From positions 1-21,867 of IMG/VR virus record IMGVR_UViG_3300035069_000169: 21,867 bases of DNA. The stretch is one strand, 5' to 3'. A program made the translations under genes and the position numbers. How positions within the stretch are numbered: position 1 is the first letter of the stretch; each line of letters begins with the position of its first letter. The stretch comes from a virus. The notes under the pieces are model-generated. The model was not told the DNA's origin, searched no databases, and was given only the letters and a program-made list of their open reading frames with translations. Positions 5,546 through 15,136 of this stretch are shown here, in pieces.

Positions 5546-5840
5546 GATTTTGTAATTTTTGTAATACAGTTGTTTCTTGCATTGGCGCTATATCATTTAA
5601 TCCATTTGCATCAAACCAAGGAGCAGTCTCCCAATCAAATCCTTCTCCAAATGTATTGTCAGGTGCTACGACATACCAATGACACTTTGCATCAGGTATA
5701 TCTACAGCACAAACTGCCCAATCATCTGCCCACTGTGGCACTTGAACATACATCACAGGTAAATGATTTGCACTAGCAAATTTTGGTAATCCGATTAAAA
5801 CTCCCCATACCAAAGTTAATATAACAAAAATTCTTATCAA
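5538..5840 (-). CDS. Exported or membrane-anchored 100-residue protein, TTG start
   Basis: I place the start at a TTG at 5840 because GGAGG lies five bases upstream of it; a GTG at 5852 would put that ribosome site inside the gene. The product begins MIRIFVILTLVWGVLIGLP, a clear hydrophobic signal or anchor, ending near FASA, a plausible signal peptidase site. The mature part is Trp-rich (QWADDWAVCAV, CHWYVVAPDN, GFDWETAPW) with two cysteines about 14 residues apart that could form a disulfide outside the membrane. It overlaps the stop of the 24-residue gene and the start of the 49-residue gene. No known domain is recognised. Confidence 0.75.
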   Translation of the reverse strand: MIRIFVILTLVWGVLIGLPKFASANHLPVMYVQVPQWADDWAVCAVDIPDAKCHWYVVAPDNTFGEGFDWETAPWFDANGLNDIAPMQETTVLQKLQNHE

Positions 5841-5911
5841 ATGTGCCTCCACTTTTTAATTCCATAACTAACTGCTAACATTGTAGCAAAAAGAATTAGT
5901 AATTCTGTCAT
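5837..5911 (-). CDS. 24-residue single-pass membrane peptide
   Basis: An ATG at 5909-5911 has an excellent ribosome site (GGAGGA, five bases before), which is itself the last codons of talC. The product is MTELLILFATMLAVSYGIKK plus four residues: one hydrophobic helix with a basic C-terminal end. Its TGA overlaps the TTG start of the next gene. The strong ribosome site and the tight overlaps on both sides support real translation. Function unknown; such peptides in phages can act on membrane proteins. Confidence 0.65.
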   Translation of the reverse strand: MTELLILFATMLAVSYGIKKWRHI

Positions 5912-7022: not shown

Positions 7023-7048
7023 AAAAAAAGAAGGGGTCGAAACCCCTT
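7023..7048 (-). terminator. Intrinsic terminator after the 34-residue riboswitch-controlled gene
   Basis: On the minus strand, AAGGGG (7043-7048) pairs with CCCCTT (7031-7036) around a six-base loop, then one C and a run of seven T. It lies 16 bases after the stop codon of the small gene. A second, AT-rich inverted repeat (TAAGCATT / AATGCTTA, 7057-7076) overlaps the end of the gene just before it. Confidence 0.85.
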
Positions 7049-7063
7049 TGTATGACTAAGCAT

Positions 7064-7168
7064 TTATGAATGCTTAATGCCTCTGTAAACTAATTCAGCG
7101 GCTTTTTTTTCTGTGGATTTTTTCTTGTCTGTATCATAGACAACTCCACGGTATGTGACTTGTGCCAT
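7064..7168 (-). CDS. 34-residue DUF4278-like peptide under riboswitch control
   Basis: I start the gene at the ATG at 7168 because AGGAG lies seven bases upstream; reading back to 7303 would only translate the structured RNA leader. The product begins MAQVTYRGVVYDTDKKK and ends LVYRGIKHS. The two YRG units, near each end, match the short DUF4278 pattern common in cyanobacteria and their phages. The peptide is basic (about eight Lys/Arg against four acidic residues). It follows a tandem glutamine-riboswitch-like leader and is followed by a terminator, so its expression probably answers to glutamine. The role is unknown; small basic proteins inactivate glutamine synthetase in cyanobacteria, which makes a nitrogen-related role a reasonable but unproven idea. 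Confidence 0.75.
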   Translation of the reverse strand: MAQVTYRGVVYDTDKKKSTEKKAAELVYRGIKHS

Positions 7169-7202
7169 TGGATTACTCCTAAAGTAGTTGGATTTTAAGG
7201 CC

Positions 7203-7247
7203 CGTTCCTTTAGTCGGCTTTTGCGTCCGTCAGATGACGGATGAACG
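7203..7247 (-). ncRNA. Glutamine riboswitch-like aptamer, copy 2 (Downstream-peptide/glnA type)
   Basis: Read on the minus strand, CGTTCA at the 5' end and GGAACG at the 3' end form the closing stem. Inside is a six-pair hairpin UCCGUC/GACGGA with a four-base loop, then CGCAAAAGCCGACUAAAG. The order CGUUCA - hairpin - GACGCAA - AAGGAACG is the core of the glutamine riboswitch family as I remember it (glnA and Downstream-peptide motifs), known from marine cyanobacteria and phage and typically placed before short ORFs. It ends 34 bases before the ATG at 7168. A covariance-model search would settle it. Confidence 0.72.
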
Positions 7248-7251
7248 AATC

Positions 7252-7294
7252 CGTTCCGAGTCGGCTTACTTGCGACCTCCGAAGAGGTTGAACG
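7252..7294 (-). ncRNA. Glutamine riboswitch-like aptamer, copy 1 (tandem)
   Basis: A second unit of the same plan lies four bases upstream of the other. CGTTCA pairs with a terminal GGAACG, and the inner hairpin is ACCTC-TTCG-GAGGT, a UUCG tetraloop. It is followed by CGCAAGTAAGCCGACT, nearly the same core sequence as in copy 2 (shared AAGCCGACT and GGAACG). The hairpin sequences differ but keep pairing, the sign of conserved RNA structure. The unit begins at about the predicted transcription start of the promoter at 7302-7330. Tandem glnA-type aptamers are known. Confidence 0.68.
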
Positions 7295-7301
7295 TAATGT
7301 C

Positions 7302-7330
7302 ATTATATCATGACATAGTTATTTATGCAA
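7302..7330 (-). promoter_or_regulatory. Sigma70-type promoter of the riboswitch and 34-residue gene
   Basis: TATAAT (7302-7307) is perfect; TTGCAT (7325-7330) matches the -35 partly; the spacer is 17 bases. A CATAAATA box, close to the late consensus, overlaps the -35 (7320-7327). Transcription would start near 7295, right at the first aptamer. Confidence 0.7.
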
Positions 7331-7340
7331 ACTGTATATT

Positions 7341-12214: not shown

Positions 12215-12217
12215 ATG

Positions 12218-12238
12218 GTGATTGCCTTCGGGGATCAC
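12218..12238 (+). promoter_or_regulatory. 5' leader hairpin with UUCG tetraloop in the hsp20 transcript
   Basis: GTGATTGCC pairs with GGGATCAC around a TTCG loop: eight pairs (one G-U) with one bulged G. Its foot coincides with the expected start of the late transcript. C(UUCG)G hairpins are very stable and could protect the mRNA 5' end. Confidence 0.6.
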
Positions 12239-12271
12239 AAATCAACCCTCGCTTATTTAAGGAGAACTATT

Positions 12272-12700
12272 ATGGGAAAACTAACAAAATATCATTCTGC
12301 CGACTTGCCAGAATTGATGGATACTATTCTAAAGAATAGTTTCGGAATGGATAACTATTTCGATCAGTTTTATAACACAACAACAACTAATTATCCACCC
12401 TACAATATTGTTCATGTAAACAACATTGAATCTAGACTAGAAATTGCACTAGCAGGATTCAAAAAGAAAGAAGTTAAAGTTTATACTGAACACGGTAAAT
12501 TAATTGTAGAAGGAAAGGTTGAATCAAAAGAAGAAGAAAATAAATTCTATCATCAAGGTTTAGCACAAAGATCTTTCAGTAGATCTTGGAGAATGTCTGA
12601 TGATGTAGAAGTAAAAGAAGTTAAATTCCAAGATGGATTATTAACTGTTAATATCTCTAAAGTCATTCCTGAGCATCATGCTCGAAAAGACTTTTTATGA
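12272..12700 (+). CDS. hsp20: Small heat shock protein Hsp20 (alpha-crystallin family)
   Basis: The ATG at 12272 has AAGGAG seven bases upstream; an earlier in-frame ATG at 12215 lies at the transcript start and is not needed. The 142-residue product has a short variable N-terminus (MGKLTKYHSADLPELMDTIL) and a typical alpha-crystallin domain from about residue 45. This includes IALAGFKKKEVKVYTEHGKL, VEGKV, RSFSRSWRMSDDVEVKEVKF and DGLLTVNISKVIPE. Hsp20 genes are standard in T4-like cyanophages, where they are thought to help virion assembly or protect against stress. A late promoter stands upstream and glycogen phosphorylase follows. Confidence 0.93.
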   Translation: MGKLTKYHSADLPELMDTILKNSFGMDNYFDQFYNTTTTNYPPYNIVHVNNIESRLEIALAGFKKKEVKVYTEHGKLIVEGKVESKEEENKFYHQGLAQRSFSRSWRMSDDVEVKEVKFQDGLLTVNISKVIPEHHARKDFL

Positions 12701-12751: not shown

Positions 12752-15136
12752 GTGAAAAACAACCTTTATAATGGTATTAAAGAACGTCTTTTCTATACAC
12801 TAGGAAAGAAAGTAGATACTGCCACCTCTAAAGATCTCTATATGGCATTAAGTTATGCCGTCAGAGATCAGATGATGAGTTACTATTTAAGTAACCCTGA
12901 TCCAAAAAAAGAGGTGGCATATCTGTCAGCAGAATTTTTAGTAGGGCCTCAACTGAATAACAATCTATTCAATCTTGGAATACAGGAAGAGGCAAAAGAA
13001 GCAGTAAAGAATTTTGGATATCAATTAGAAGATATACTAGAGCATGCAGAAGAGCCTGGACTTGGTAATGGAGGTCTAGGTCGTCTTGCAGCATGTTACA
13101 TGGAATCCTTGGCAACTCTTGAAGTTCCTGCTACAGGATATGGAATTAGATATAAGTTTGGATTATTTAAACAGAAGATTAAAGAAGGTCAACAGATTGA
13201 AGTAACTGATAACTGGTTACATGGAGACTGGCCTTGGGAACTAGCATATCCTGATGAATCTTGTTTAGTTGGATTTGGTGGTAAAGTAGAACACTATCGT
13301 TCTGATAGAGACAACTATAGAGTTAGATGGATTCCAGAAGAACAAGTGGTTGCAGTTCCATATGATGTATTACAAATAGGATATAAAGCAGACAATTGTA
13401 ATCGAATCAGACTATGGAGAGCAGATGCTACTGAGATATTTGATTTCTATGCATTTAATATTGGTGACTATCTTGGATCAGTAGAACAGAGTGTAACCTC
13501 AGAAACTATCTCTAAAGTTCTATATCCGAATGATGGTACAGATCAAGGAAGACAACTTAGATTGAAACAACAGTTCTTCTTTGTGAGTGCATCTCTTCAA
13601 GATATGATTAGAAGTCTAAAGAAACGTGAGATACCCTTAACAAGTTTTTCTGATTACTATGCTGTTCAATTAAATGATACCCACCCTGCTATTGCAGTTG
13701 CAGAATTAATGAGACTGTTTGTAGATGATCATCACATTGATTGGGATACTGCATGGGAAGTTACACACAAATCTATTGCATATACAAACCATACACTTCT
13801 ACCAGAAGCATTAGAGAAGTGGGATCTTCGTTTGTTTGCAGATCTTTTACCAAGACATCTTGAAATCATATATGAAATTAACGCTAGATTTATGCAAGTT
13901 GTAAGACTTAAATATCCTGGCGATGAATCTATGATGGAGAAAATGTCAATCATAGATGAGAATGGTAACAAGTCAATTCGTATGGCAAACCTTGCAACAA
14001 TTGGATCTCATCATGTAAATGGTGTTGCAGAATTACATTCTCAGTTAATTAAAAGAGAATTGATGCCAGAGTTCTATGATCTATGGCCCGAGAAGTTTAC
14101 AAATGTCACAAATGGTGTAACTCCTCGTAGATGGTTAGCGTCATCAAATGTACCACTTGCAAAAGTATTAGATGAATATGTGGGTGAAAACTGGATTACC
14201 AATATGGAATCTCTGAAAAAACTTGAAGAAAATGAATGGAATCTAGATGTACTTGAAAAGATTGAAGAAACTAAACTTGAAGGTAAACATGATTTATCAG
14301 TCTATATCTTTGATCAACTTGGTATTACAGTAGATCCAAAGAGTATGTTTGATATTCATGTCAAAAGGATTCATGAATATAAGAGACAACACTTAAAAGC
14401 TCTTGAAGTTATTGTACAATATCTTCGTATCAAAAATGGGAAAACAGAGAATATAGTTCCTCGAACAATTGTCTTTGGTGGTAAAGCAGCGCCTGGCTAC
14501 TACATGGCAAAATTAATTATATACTTTATTAACAGTATTGCATCTACTATTAACAATGATCCAGATACCAAAGATTTGTTAAAGGTTATATTCCTACCAA
14601 ACTATAGTGTCAAGTTAGGAGAGAAAGTATACCCTGCTGCTGATCTATCAGAACAGATCTCTACTGCTGGTAAAGAAGCATCAGGTACAGGTAACATGAA
14701 GTTCCAGATGAATGGTGCTTTAACAATTGGTACACTTGATGGTGCGAATGTAGAGATAAGAAATTTAGTTGGCGGAGAAAACTTCTTTCTTTTTGGAAAG
14801 ACTGAGAAAGAAATACAGATGCTTAGAGACAATTATGATCCACAACATTATATTGGAACTGAACTTGGTGAAGCAATCAGTCTAATCGAAGGTGGATTTT
14901 TCAGTGGTGGTTTCAAAGATATGTTTAAACCATTGATTGATAATTTAAAATATCATGATCCATTTTTTGTAATGGCAGACTTTGAAGATTACATTGAAAC
15001 ACAAGATATGATCAGTCAAAAATGGAAACATAGAGAGAATTGGAATCGTACTTCTCTATTAAATATTGCAAGATCAGGGTTTTTCTCATCTGATCGTTCT
15101 ATCAGGGATTACTGTAAAAACATCTGGCACATATAA
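12752..15136 (+). CDS. glgP: Glycogen/starch phosphorylase
   Basis: The 794-residue protein is full length compared with bacterial GlgP (about 815). It would cleave glycogen with phosphate to glucose-1-phosphate, using pyridoxal phosphate. Diagnostic pieces are present throughout: GLGNGGLGRLAACYMESLAT (about 101-120), YGIRYKFGLF, LNDTHPAIAVAELMR, NVTNGVTPRRWL, RIHEYKRQ (from 539) and FGGKAAPGYYMAK. EASGTGNMKF holds the PLP lysine at residue 650, followed by NGALTIGTLDGANVE. The end FFSSDRSIRDYCKNIWHI matches bacterial enzymes. The start is a GTG without a clear ribosome site (an ATG two bases earlier runs straight into TGA). Codon use is AT-rich like its neighbours, so it is settled in the genome. 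It follows hsp20 and is probably late. Confidence 0.95.
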   Translation: MKNNLYNGIKERLFYTLGKKVDTATSKDLYMALSYAVRDQMMSYYLSNPDPKKEVAYLSAEFLVGPQLNNNLFNLGIQEEAKEAVKNFGYQLEDILEHAEEPGLGNGGLGRLAACYMESLATLEVPATGYGIRYKFGLFKQKIKEGQQIEVTDNWLHGDWPWELAYPDESCLVGFGGKVEHYRSDRDNYRVRWIPEEQVVAVPYDVLQIGYKADNCNRIRLWRADATEIFDFYAFNIGDYLGSVEQSVTSETISKVLYPNDGTDQGRQLRLKQQFFFVSASLQDMIRSLKKREIPLTSFSDYYAVQLNDTHPAIAVAELMRLFVDDHHIDWDTAWEVTHKSIAYTNHTLLPEALEKWDLRLFADLLPRHLEIIYEINARFMQVVRLKYPGDESMMEKMSIIDENGNKSIRMANLATIGSHHVNGVAELHSQLIKRELMPEFYDLWPEKFTNVTNGVTPRRWLASSNVPLAKVLDEYVGENWITNMESLKKLEENEWNLDVLEKIEETKLEGKHDLSVYIFDQLGITVDPKSMFDIHVKRIHEYKRQHLKALEVIVQYLRIKNGKTENIVPRTIVFGGKAAPGYYMAKLIIYFINSIASTINNDPDTKDLLKVIFLPNYSVKLGEKVYPAADLSEQISTAGKEASGTGNMKFQMNGALTIGTLDGANVEIRNLVGGENFFLFGKTEKEIQMLRDNYDPQHYIGTELGEAISLIEGGFFSGGFKDMFKPLIDNLKYHDPFFVMADFEDYIETQDMISQKWKHRENWNRTSLLNIARSGFFSSDRSIRDYCKNIWHI

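Follow-up and report, generated by a model that had tools for sequence, protein, structure and literature searches.

In tandem glycine riboswitches and in other tandem riboswitches, two similar units stand ahead of one gene and each unit is a complete aptamer, and group I introns carry open reading frames (ORFs) in their peripheral loops. The glutamine riboswitches of cyanobacteria, namely the glnA (type 1) and Downstream-peptide (type 2) aptamers, are located mainly ahead of DUF4278 genes, and glutamine activates (PMC6316151). It has been also known that T4-like cyanophages carry glutamine riboswitches (PMC9964418, PMC9602691). In addition, a glutamine riboswitch of a marine methylophage (PMC9004378) and tandem glnA RNAs (PMC2864571) have been published.

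The stretch of DNA analyzed here, which we call the window, spans 21,867 bases and makes up one entire IMG/VR record. It is a piece of a T4-like cyanophage genome, with genes for a DnaB-like helicase, a RecA-like protein, a family B DNA polymerase, a clamp and a clamp loader, a translation repressor, a transaldolase, an Hsp20-like protein and a carbohydrate phosphorylase; no tRNA gene was detected in the 21,867-base window. The Hsp20-like gene (12215-12700, plus strand) adjoins the carbohydrate (glycogen-type) phosphorylase gene (12752-15136, plus strand; Pfam, 1032.7 bits). The two glnA-like units described in the original prediction are present on the minus strand, unit A (unit 1, 5') at 7294-7252 and unit B (unit 2, 3') at 7247-7203, joined by a GATT linker at 7251-7248, and the AGGAG, the 34-codon ORF (7168-7064) and the terminator (7048-7031) are all borne out by the sequence. 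Along the minus strand from 7294 to 7202, the first part reads CGTTCA ACCTCTTCGGAGGT CGCAAGTA AGCCGACTC GGAACG GATT, and the second part reads CGTTCA TCCGTCATCTGACGGA CGCAA AAGCCGACT AAA GGAACG G. The features of the element are as follows.

7302 to 7331, minus strand: sigma-70-type promoter, with the -10 box TATAAT ending 7 nt 5' of CGTTCA (sequence, promoter scan).
7297 to 7316, minus strand: inverted repeat ATGTCAT-GATATA-ATGACAT enclosing the -10 box (sequence, comparison with relatives).
7252 to 7294, minus strand: unit A, comprising the P1 5' strand CGTTCA, the P2a hairpin, CGCAAGTA (5' half of the E-loop), the P3 5' strand AGCCGACTC and GGAACG (sequence, RF01739).
7248 to 7257, minus strand: GGAACG of unit A and linker GATT; the predicted partner is CGTTCA of unit B, giving an inner P1-like hairpin (folding, RNAalifold).
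7203 to 7247, minus strand: unit B, comprising CGTTCA, the P2b hairpin, CGCAA, the P3 3' strand AAGCCGACT, AAA (3' half of the E-loop) and GGAACG (outer P1 3' strand) (sequence, RF01739, RNAalifold).
7202, minus strand: G 3' of unit B, forming the outer linchpin with C7272 of unit A, the third base of CGCAAGTA (covariation, independent changes).
7208 to 7213, minus strand: putative anti-Shine-Dalgarno CUAAAG, which shares bases with the end of P3, with the E-loop half and with the first G of GGAACG (predicted pairing, purine/pyrimidine covariation).
7176 to 7184, minus strand: CUUUAGGAG, the Shine-Dalgarno and predicted target of the anti-Shine-Dalgarno (sequence, folding, covariation).
7064 to 7168, minus strand: DUF4278 gene of 34 amino acids, MAQVTYRGVVYDTDKKKSTEKKAAELVYRGIKHS (Pfam, PHROG, cyanophage homologues).
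7031 to 7048, minus strand: intrinsic terminator, followed by a T run (terminator scan).

In the Rfam covariance search, both units gave full-length matches to RF01739 (glnA), each covering model positions 1-53, with 30.0 bits for unit A and 25.4 bits for unit B (E-values of 1.5e-6 and 2.8e-5 in the single-family search), and both scores are below the Rfam gathering score of 35 bits. The match to RF01704 (Downstream-peptide) in the window reached 22.7 bits, below its gathering score of 33. Some relatives exceed the gathering score of RF01739 (L129 with 39.6 and 38.6 bits, L027 with 35.5 bits). When the window and its relatives were scanned with cmscan, the units were aligned as two separate matches and a nested alignment was not preferred. 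The P1 strands CGUUC/GAACG, P2 and the CG-AAGUA junction of RF01739 are present in the window. Of the E-loop parts, unit A supplies AGUA and unit B supplies AAA instead of GAA, so that the E-loop is complete solely in a fold in which the two units are nested. The Watson-Crick pair capping P1 is present as a cross-unit C-G, which we take to be the linchpin known from the crystal structure of the glutamine riboswitch. The proposed relatedness to glutamine riboswitches in a phage genome is supported, in agreement with earlier reports (PMC6316151, PMC9964418, PMC9602691), and so is the proposed control of a DUF4278 mini-protein, which agrees with the placement of glnA and Downstream-peptide aptamers (PMC6316151). 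Judged by sequence, the assignment to the class, that is, a feature that works like a glutamine riboswitch, appears broadly right, with the window scoring under the strict Rfam cut-off.

The relatives came from pattern scans of IMG/VR and isolate genomes, which gave at least 223 loci, at least 196 of them distinct, among the matches listed; frequencies among these matches are not population estimates, and since the pattern needs exact GGAACG and CGTTCA, P1 variation is outside its reach. Because the same two-part order occurs at at least 223 viral loci, the arrangement is not due to chance. The original prediction had missed that the units are not equivalent, unit A reading CGCAAGTA...CGGAACG and unit B reading CGCAA...CTAAAGGAACG, and that unit B of the window has an A in place of the E-loop G of the family. 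In the related viral loci, unit A retains the AGUA half of the E-loop and has no GAA beside its P1, and unit B retains the RAA half and has no AGUA. P3 consists of the strand after AGUA of unit A, which is complementary to the strand before RAA of unit B. In the short class, P3 is AGUCG with CGACU or AGUCA with UGACU, and for AGUCG with CGACU a local hairpin is impossible. In the long class, AGCCGACU pairs with AGCCGACU through six standard pairs and two A-C mismatches, and the mismatches are mostly kept.

Pair 8 of P3, read between the units, is U-A in 77, G-C in 27, A-U in 8 and U-G in 2 of 114 cores (shuffle mean 64), while the local alternative within unit A gives just 77 pairings in the same cores. 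The outer linchpin, between the variable position in CG[N]AAGUA of unit A and the base after GGAACG of unit B, is Watson-Crick in 172/172 distinct cores (C-G 95, G-C 77; shuffle mean 87). In these 172 cores, no such consistent complementarity links the linchpin position of unit A to the base that follows unit A. On the tree of the downstream genes, 7/7 independent changes of the outer linchpin and 10/10 of P3 pair 8 were concerted, counts that are limited to supported branches since the tree was built on short genes. When we compared the two arrangements in 30 compact natural sequences, 99.2% of the cells were paired in the nested form and 92.0% in the tandem form, the covariation scores were 0.323 and 0.231, and the linchpins paired in 100% and 93% of cases in the nested form versus 60% and 57% in the tandem form. 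RNAalifold returned the nested fold unprompted as its consensus, including the inner P1-like hairpin. In single-sequence folding of the window leader, the tandem P1 of unit A reached 0.00 (tandem P1s 0.00-0.01), the inner hairpin about 0.92 and the outer P1 0.04, and the ligand-free fold had a z-score of -1.26, a stability not unusual for its composition. Since the P1 strands are identical in all units, P1 cannot discriminate between the arrangements, and the case rests on the linchpin, P3 and folding; a scan for the P1 variants CGCTCA and CGTCCA found none with the right arms, leaving P1 uninformative. The P2 statistics are partly circular, because the P2 arms were required to match at 4/5 (P2a) or 3/5 (P2b) positions. 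Comparison of the leaders of related phages, which had been proposed as a check, did reveal compensatory changes, and these join the two units rather than lying within each unit alone. This sequence comparison shows the nested pairing itself, and the two units are probably one interlocked sensor and not two independent aptamers; the earlier idea of two separate aptamers with a steeper response is disfavoured by covariation and RNAalifold, which point to one nested RNA made from both units.

RF01739 matches were found in 71 of 386 genomes sampled from the cyanobacterial phylum. The 30 host aptamers examined are single and have a local P3 hairpin, a G in CGG and a C after P1 (a G...C linchpin). 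The composite pattern was found in 0/386 genomes of the phylum and in 0/300 genomes of one family, so that the composite form looks phage-specific as far as sampled. A loose version of the pattern gave matches in genome contigs and 17 host genomes that we took as chance, and tighter patterns gave none. One contig with a composite glutamine riboswitch, L052, also contains a PhotoRC-II RNA (5813-5907, minus strand; 80.6 bits).

In the relatives, the P2 hairpins are often swapped for whole genes of about 50-75 codons. The P2 lengths are bimodal, being either 11-47 nt or 186-229 nt (P2a) and 138-192 nt (P2b), and among 196 distinct composites P2b is gene-sized in 110, P2a in 41, both in 23 and neither in 68. 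The large P2a arms contain an ORF of 59-75 codons in 53/53 cases, starting in or near the stem, and the large P2b arms contain an ORF in 121/126, with the ATG 3-5 nt past CGTTCA in nearly all. Because the P2b ORF stops at URA of CURAAGG, the core encodes its last residues, usually DAKAD or DAND. Differences among relatives at P2b codon positions 1, 2 and 3 numbered 4324, 1940 and 7894, and this excess at third positions is as expected for translated genes under selection. Several annotated hypothetical genes of isolates (PSSM7_205, PHM1_179, PHM1_180, PSSM4_169.2, PSSM4_169.3 and SSZBM1_127) correspond to P2 ORFs. Comparison by hhalign relates the P2a peptides to those of P2b (probability 96%, E 2e-9); both have a hydrophobic start and two conserved cysteines, and both match PHROG families of unknown function. 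AlphaFold predicts a two-helix hairpin core for each, and a PDB search with the P2a peptide model gave no match at E 0.001 or below. One peptide family occurs in both positions (P2b of L015, P2a of L044), and gene presence switches at least 28 times for P2a and at least 45 times for P2b on the short-gene tree. With a shared peptide family and repeated changes of presence, the arms resemble slots whose content can be exchanged. The window represents the compact form, with P2 arms free of embedded genes. In the short class, the linker GAG (giving GGAG, a possible Shine-Dalgarno) went with P2b genes in 39/39 versus 0/17 cases, but independent branches gave no significant link (p about 0.25; 3-4 of 8 pairs). 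In about 48 relatives (among them L006, L052 and L097), P2b is a 22-nt hairpin that recurs as TTCGCTATTCGCAAATAGCGAA or a near variant. This hairpin can occupy either arm, being P2a in L102 and L203. We consider it fairly likely that the two repeats interlock into one nested aptamer whose P2 arms are exchangeable slots for complete small-protein genes, and that the sensing core is also coding, encoding the last residues (DAKAD or DAND) of the P2b gene along with its stop codon. A transcript of such relatives holds up to three short ORFs, and one glutamine-sensing RNA would then encode up to three mini-proteins.

The promoter is real in form, with TTGCAT, a 17-nt spacer and TATAAT recognized by eye as originally described; the promoter scanner lists the same site as TTTGCA, 18 and TATAAT, and about one chance match is expected for a stretch of this size. 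With a -10 box that ends 7 nt ahead of CGTTCA, the predicted transcription start lies near the first base of P1, and the corresponding spacing is 7-10 nt in 167 of 209 relatives. Inverted-repeat arms of at least 5 enclose the -10 box in 92% of 48 strict composite promoters, compared with 18% of 254 other promoters on the same contigs and 13% of shuffles. Among the relatives, 94 distinct arms were observed, in which the sequence varies and the symmetry is kept. Is the repeat a fast-evolving operator or a DNA/RNA hairpin?

The 34-residue peptide just reaches the Pfam cut-off for DUF4278 (PF14105; 25.4 bits, cut-off 25.3, E 1.9e-5), matches phrog_5049 (E 3e-14) and has homologues in cyanophages. 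A DUF4278-like (YRG) gene lies downstream in nearly all relatives, with two YRG motifs in the longer ones. In nine relatives (L120, L157, L160, L164, L167, L195, L198, L204 and L207), the downstream gene encodes another short basic peptide that is not DUF4278, such as MALILIKQKMLKEQRLREAQ... or MSQVKVKTNNNWQLVLIKKQKEKEQR..., which indicates that the riboswitch can serve other mini-proteins. In the window, the DUF4278 frame is open upstream across both units to an ATG at 7303 (7064-7303, minus strand, 79 codons), which we take as coincidence because the Shine-Dalgarno fits the inner ATG. An extra leader with an ACGGATC...GAAAG-type hairpin lies between GGAACG and the Shine-Dalgarno in L037, L087, L093, L099, L247, L257 and L269. 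The small PII-binding protein PirA regulates arginine synthesis; it reportedly does not occur in marine picocyanobacteria (PMC8092223) and thus offers no ready model for the phage peptide.

Based on these comparisons, it is quite likely that the element is a phage-specific two-unit glutamine riboswitch with interlocked repeats, which would act as a translational ON switch for the DUF4278 gene. One canonical-looking aptamer would be built from two halves: CGUUCA, P2a, CGCAAGUA and the P3 5' strand, which make up the 5' half of unit A, and the P3 3' strand, RAA, GGAACG and G, which make up the 3' half of unit B. What is left, namely the 3' end of unit A together with the first half of unit B, would form another, closed P1-P2 arm at the opposite end of the shared P3. 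When glutamine is lacking, the CUAAAG in unit B would pair with CUUUAG over the Shine-Dalgarno and keep the DUF4278 gene off. Glutamine would stabilize the outer P1, the E-loop, P3 and the linchpin; because these elements take up the bases of the anti-Shine-Dalgarno, the Shine-Dalgarno would be freed and the gene turned on. In folding of the ligand-free window leader, the helix CUAAAG:CUUUAG has p 0.73-0.81, and it is abolished when the nested P1 is enforced. In relatives of the window class, the E-loop purine and the Shine-Dalgarno pyrimidine combine as A-U in 23, G-C in 24, G-U in 23 and A-C in 0 (Fisher p 6.5e-6, uncorrected for relatedness). We propose that the release of the Shine-Dalgarno depends on the ligand. 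In the CGG...C class, with the host-like linchpin, the predicted partner of the Shine-Dalgarno in 90/95 is the leader segment immediately 3' of P1; since this class masks the Shine-Dalgarno with a different helix, the readout is not uniform. Since the window has A for G in the E-loop, ligand affinity or specificity could differ. The peptide may act on host nitrogen metabolism, by analogy with the presumed role of host DUF4278 proteins under glutamine riboswitches.

Other readings need to be considered here. It is highly doubtful that the locus holds two independent tandem glnA aptamers, each with its own P1, giving a more digital response. The two full-length Rfam matches and P1 strands that permit each unit its own closure are in line with it, and some glnA RNAs have been called tandem and tied to more digital control (PMC2864571). 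However, the linchpins that it implies fail in 72 and 75 of the 172 distinct cores, a local P3 is impossible in the short class and elsewhere pairs about 66-68% of cells, one E-loop half is missing from each unit, and both RNAalifold and the folding ensemble of the window avoid this arrangement. The evidence from linchpin, P3 and folding led us to reject the notion that unit A and unit B are complete aptamers, each forming a P1, a P3 and a linchpin by itself. A tentative refinement of the nested explanation, compatible with it, is that the shared P3 has a ligand site at either end and that the two sites bind cooperatively. The inner arm retains CGUUCA, P2b and CGNAA, and the inner linchpin covaries too (C-G 160 and G-C 3 of 172, flipped in L078, L129 and L176), but an E-loop is missing at the inner end of P3 (C stands against A) and the inner linchpin is not Watson-Crick in 9/172.

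The ligand may no longer be glutamine, but a related amino acid or nothing, with the RNA persisting as an aptamer-derived structural regulator; sub-threshold Rfam scores, a linchpin flipped in about half of the relatives and an E-loop G changed to A in 32/204 fit this idea. We consider it improbable, as the CGG class has an outer core that matches the host core letter for letter and the targets belong to the same DUF4278 family found after host glutamine riboswitches (PMC6316151). It is also rather unlikely that glutamine turns the gene OFF, or that translational coupling from ORFs in the P2 arms dominates. Where relatives carry such ORFs, the anti-Shine-Dalgarno would be covered by a ribosome that stops at URA of CURAAGG, and in the CGG class the Shine-Dalgarno is masked by the helix just 3' of P1; on the other hand, P2 of the window has no ORF, its anti-Shine-Dalgarno and bound aptamer are mutually exclusive, and the type 1 and type 2 glutamine riboswitches studied to date activate expression (PMC6316151).

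Compared with tandem glycine and other tandem riboswitches, the phage element likewise has two similar units ahead of one gene, but neither unit seems complete. As in group I introns, protein genes are placed in loops of a structured RNA, whereas the phage RNA is, by sequence, a metabolite aptamer whose sensing core includes the stop codon of one of the genes. With the type 1 glutamine riboswitch (glnA, RF01739) it shares the CGUUCA/GGAACG P1, P2, CG[N]AAGUA, RAA, the linchpin position and the DUF4278 target. It differs from type 1 in having two interlocked units instead of one, with the E-loop and P3 split between them, a linchpin often flipped to C-G, and a P2 that may hold a gene. The type 2 riboswitch (RF01704) has the marine picocyanobacterial context, a short downstream ORF and a similar core in common with it, but the window scores below the 33-bit cut-off and contains type 1 E-loop parts instead. 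The riboswitch of cyanobacterial gifB/IF17 and the DUF4278 gene PMM1846, which is ON with glutamine, shares the sensor and the protein domain (PMC6316151); those are host genes, whereas the interlocked form is absent in the hosts sampled and the phage peptide has just 34 amino acids. In our literature search, neither the interlocked fold nor aptamer-housed genes turned up, with key subscription papers beyond its reach. What appears to be new is the interlocked fold and the embedded genes, and what was already known is the cyanophage glutamine riboswitches, the 'tandem' glnA RNAs and the DUF4278 link.

Cultured isolates, among them P-SSM4, P-HM1 and P-SSM7, allow a direct test. If the proposed arrangement is true, the 'tandem' glutamine riboswitches of marine viruses would be one interlocked sensor and not two, and whole genes would be housed in an aptamer in which the same nucleotides sense and code. 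It would also tie the small phage proteins of phrog_504, phrog_6471, phrog_13397 and DUF4278 to the nitrogen state of the host in widespread marine cyanophages.
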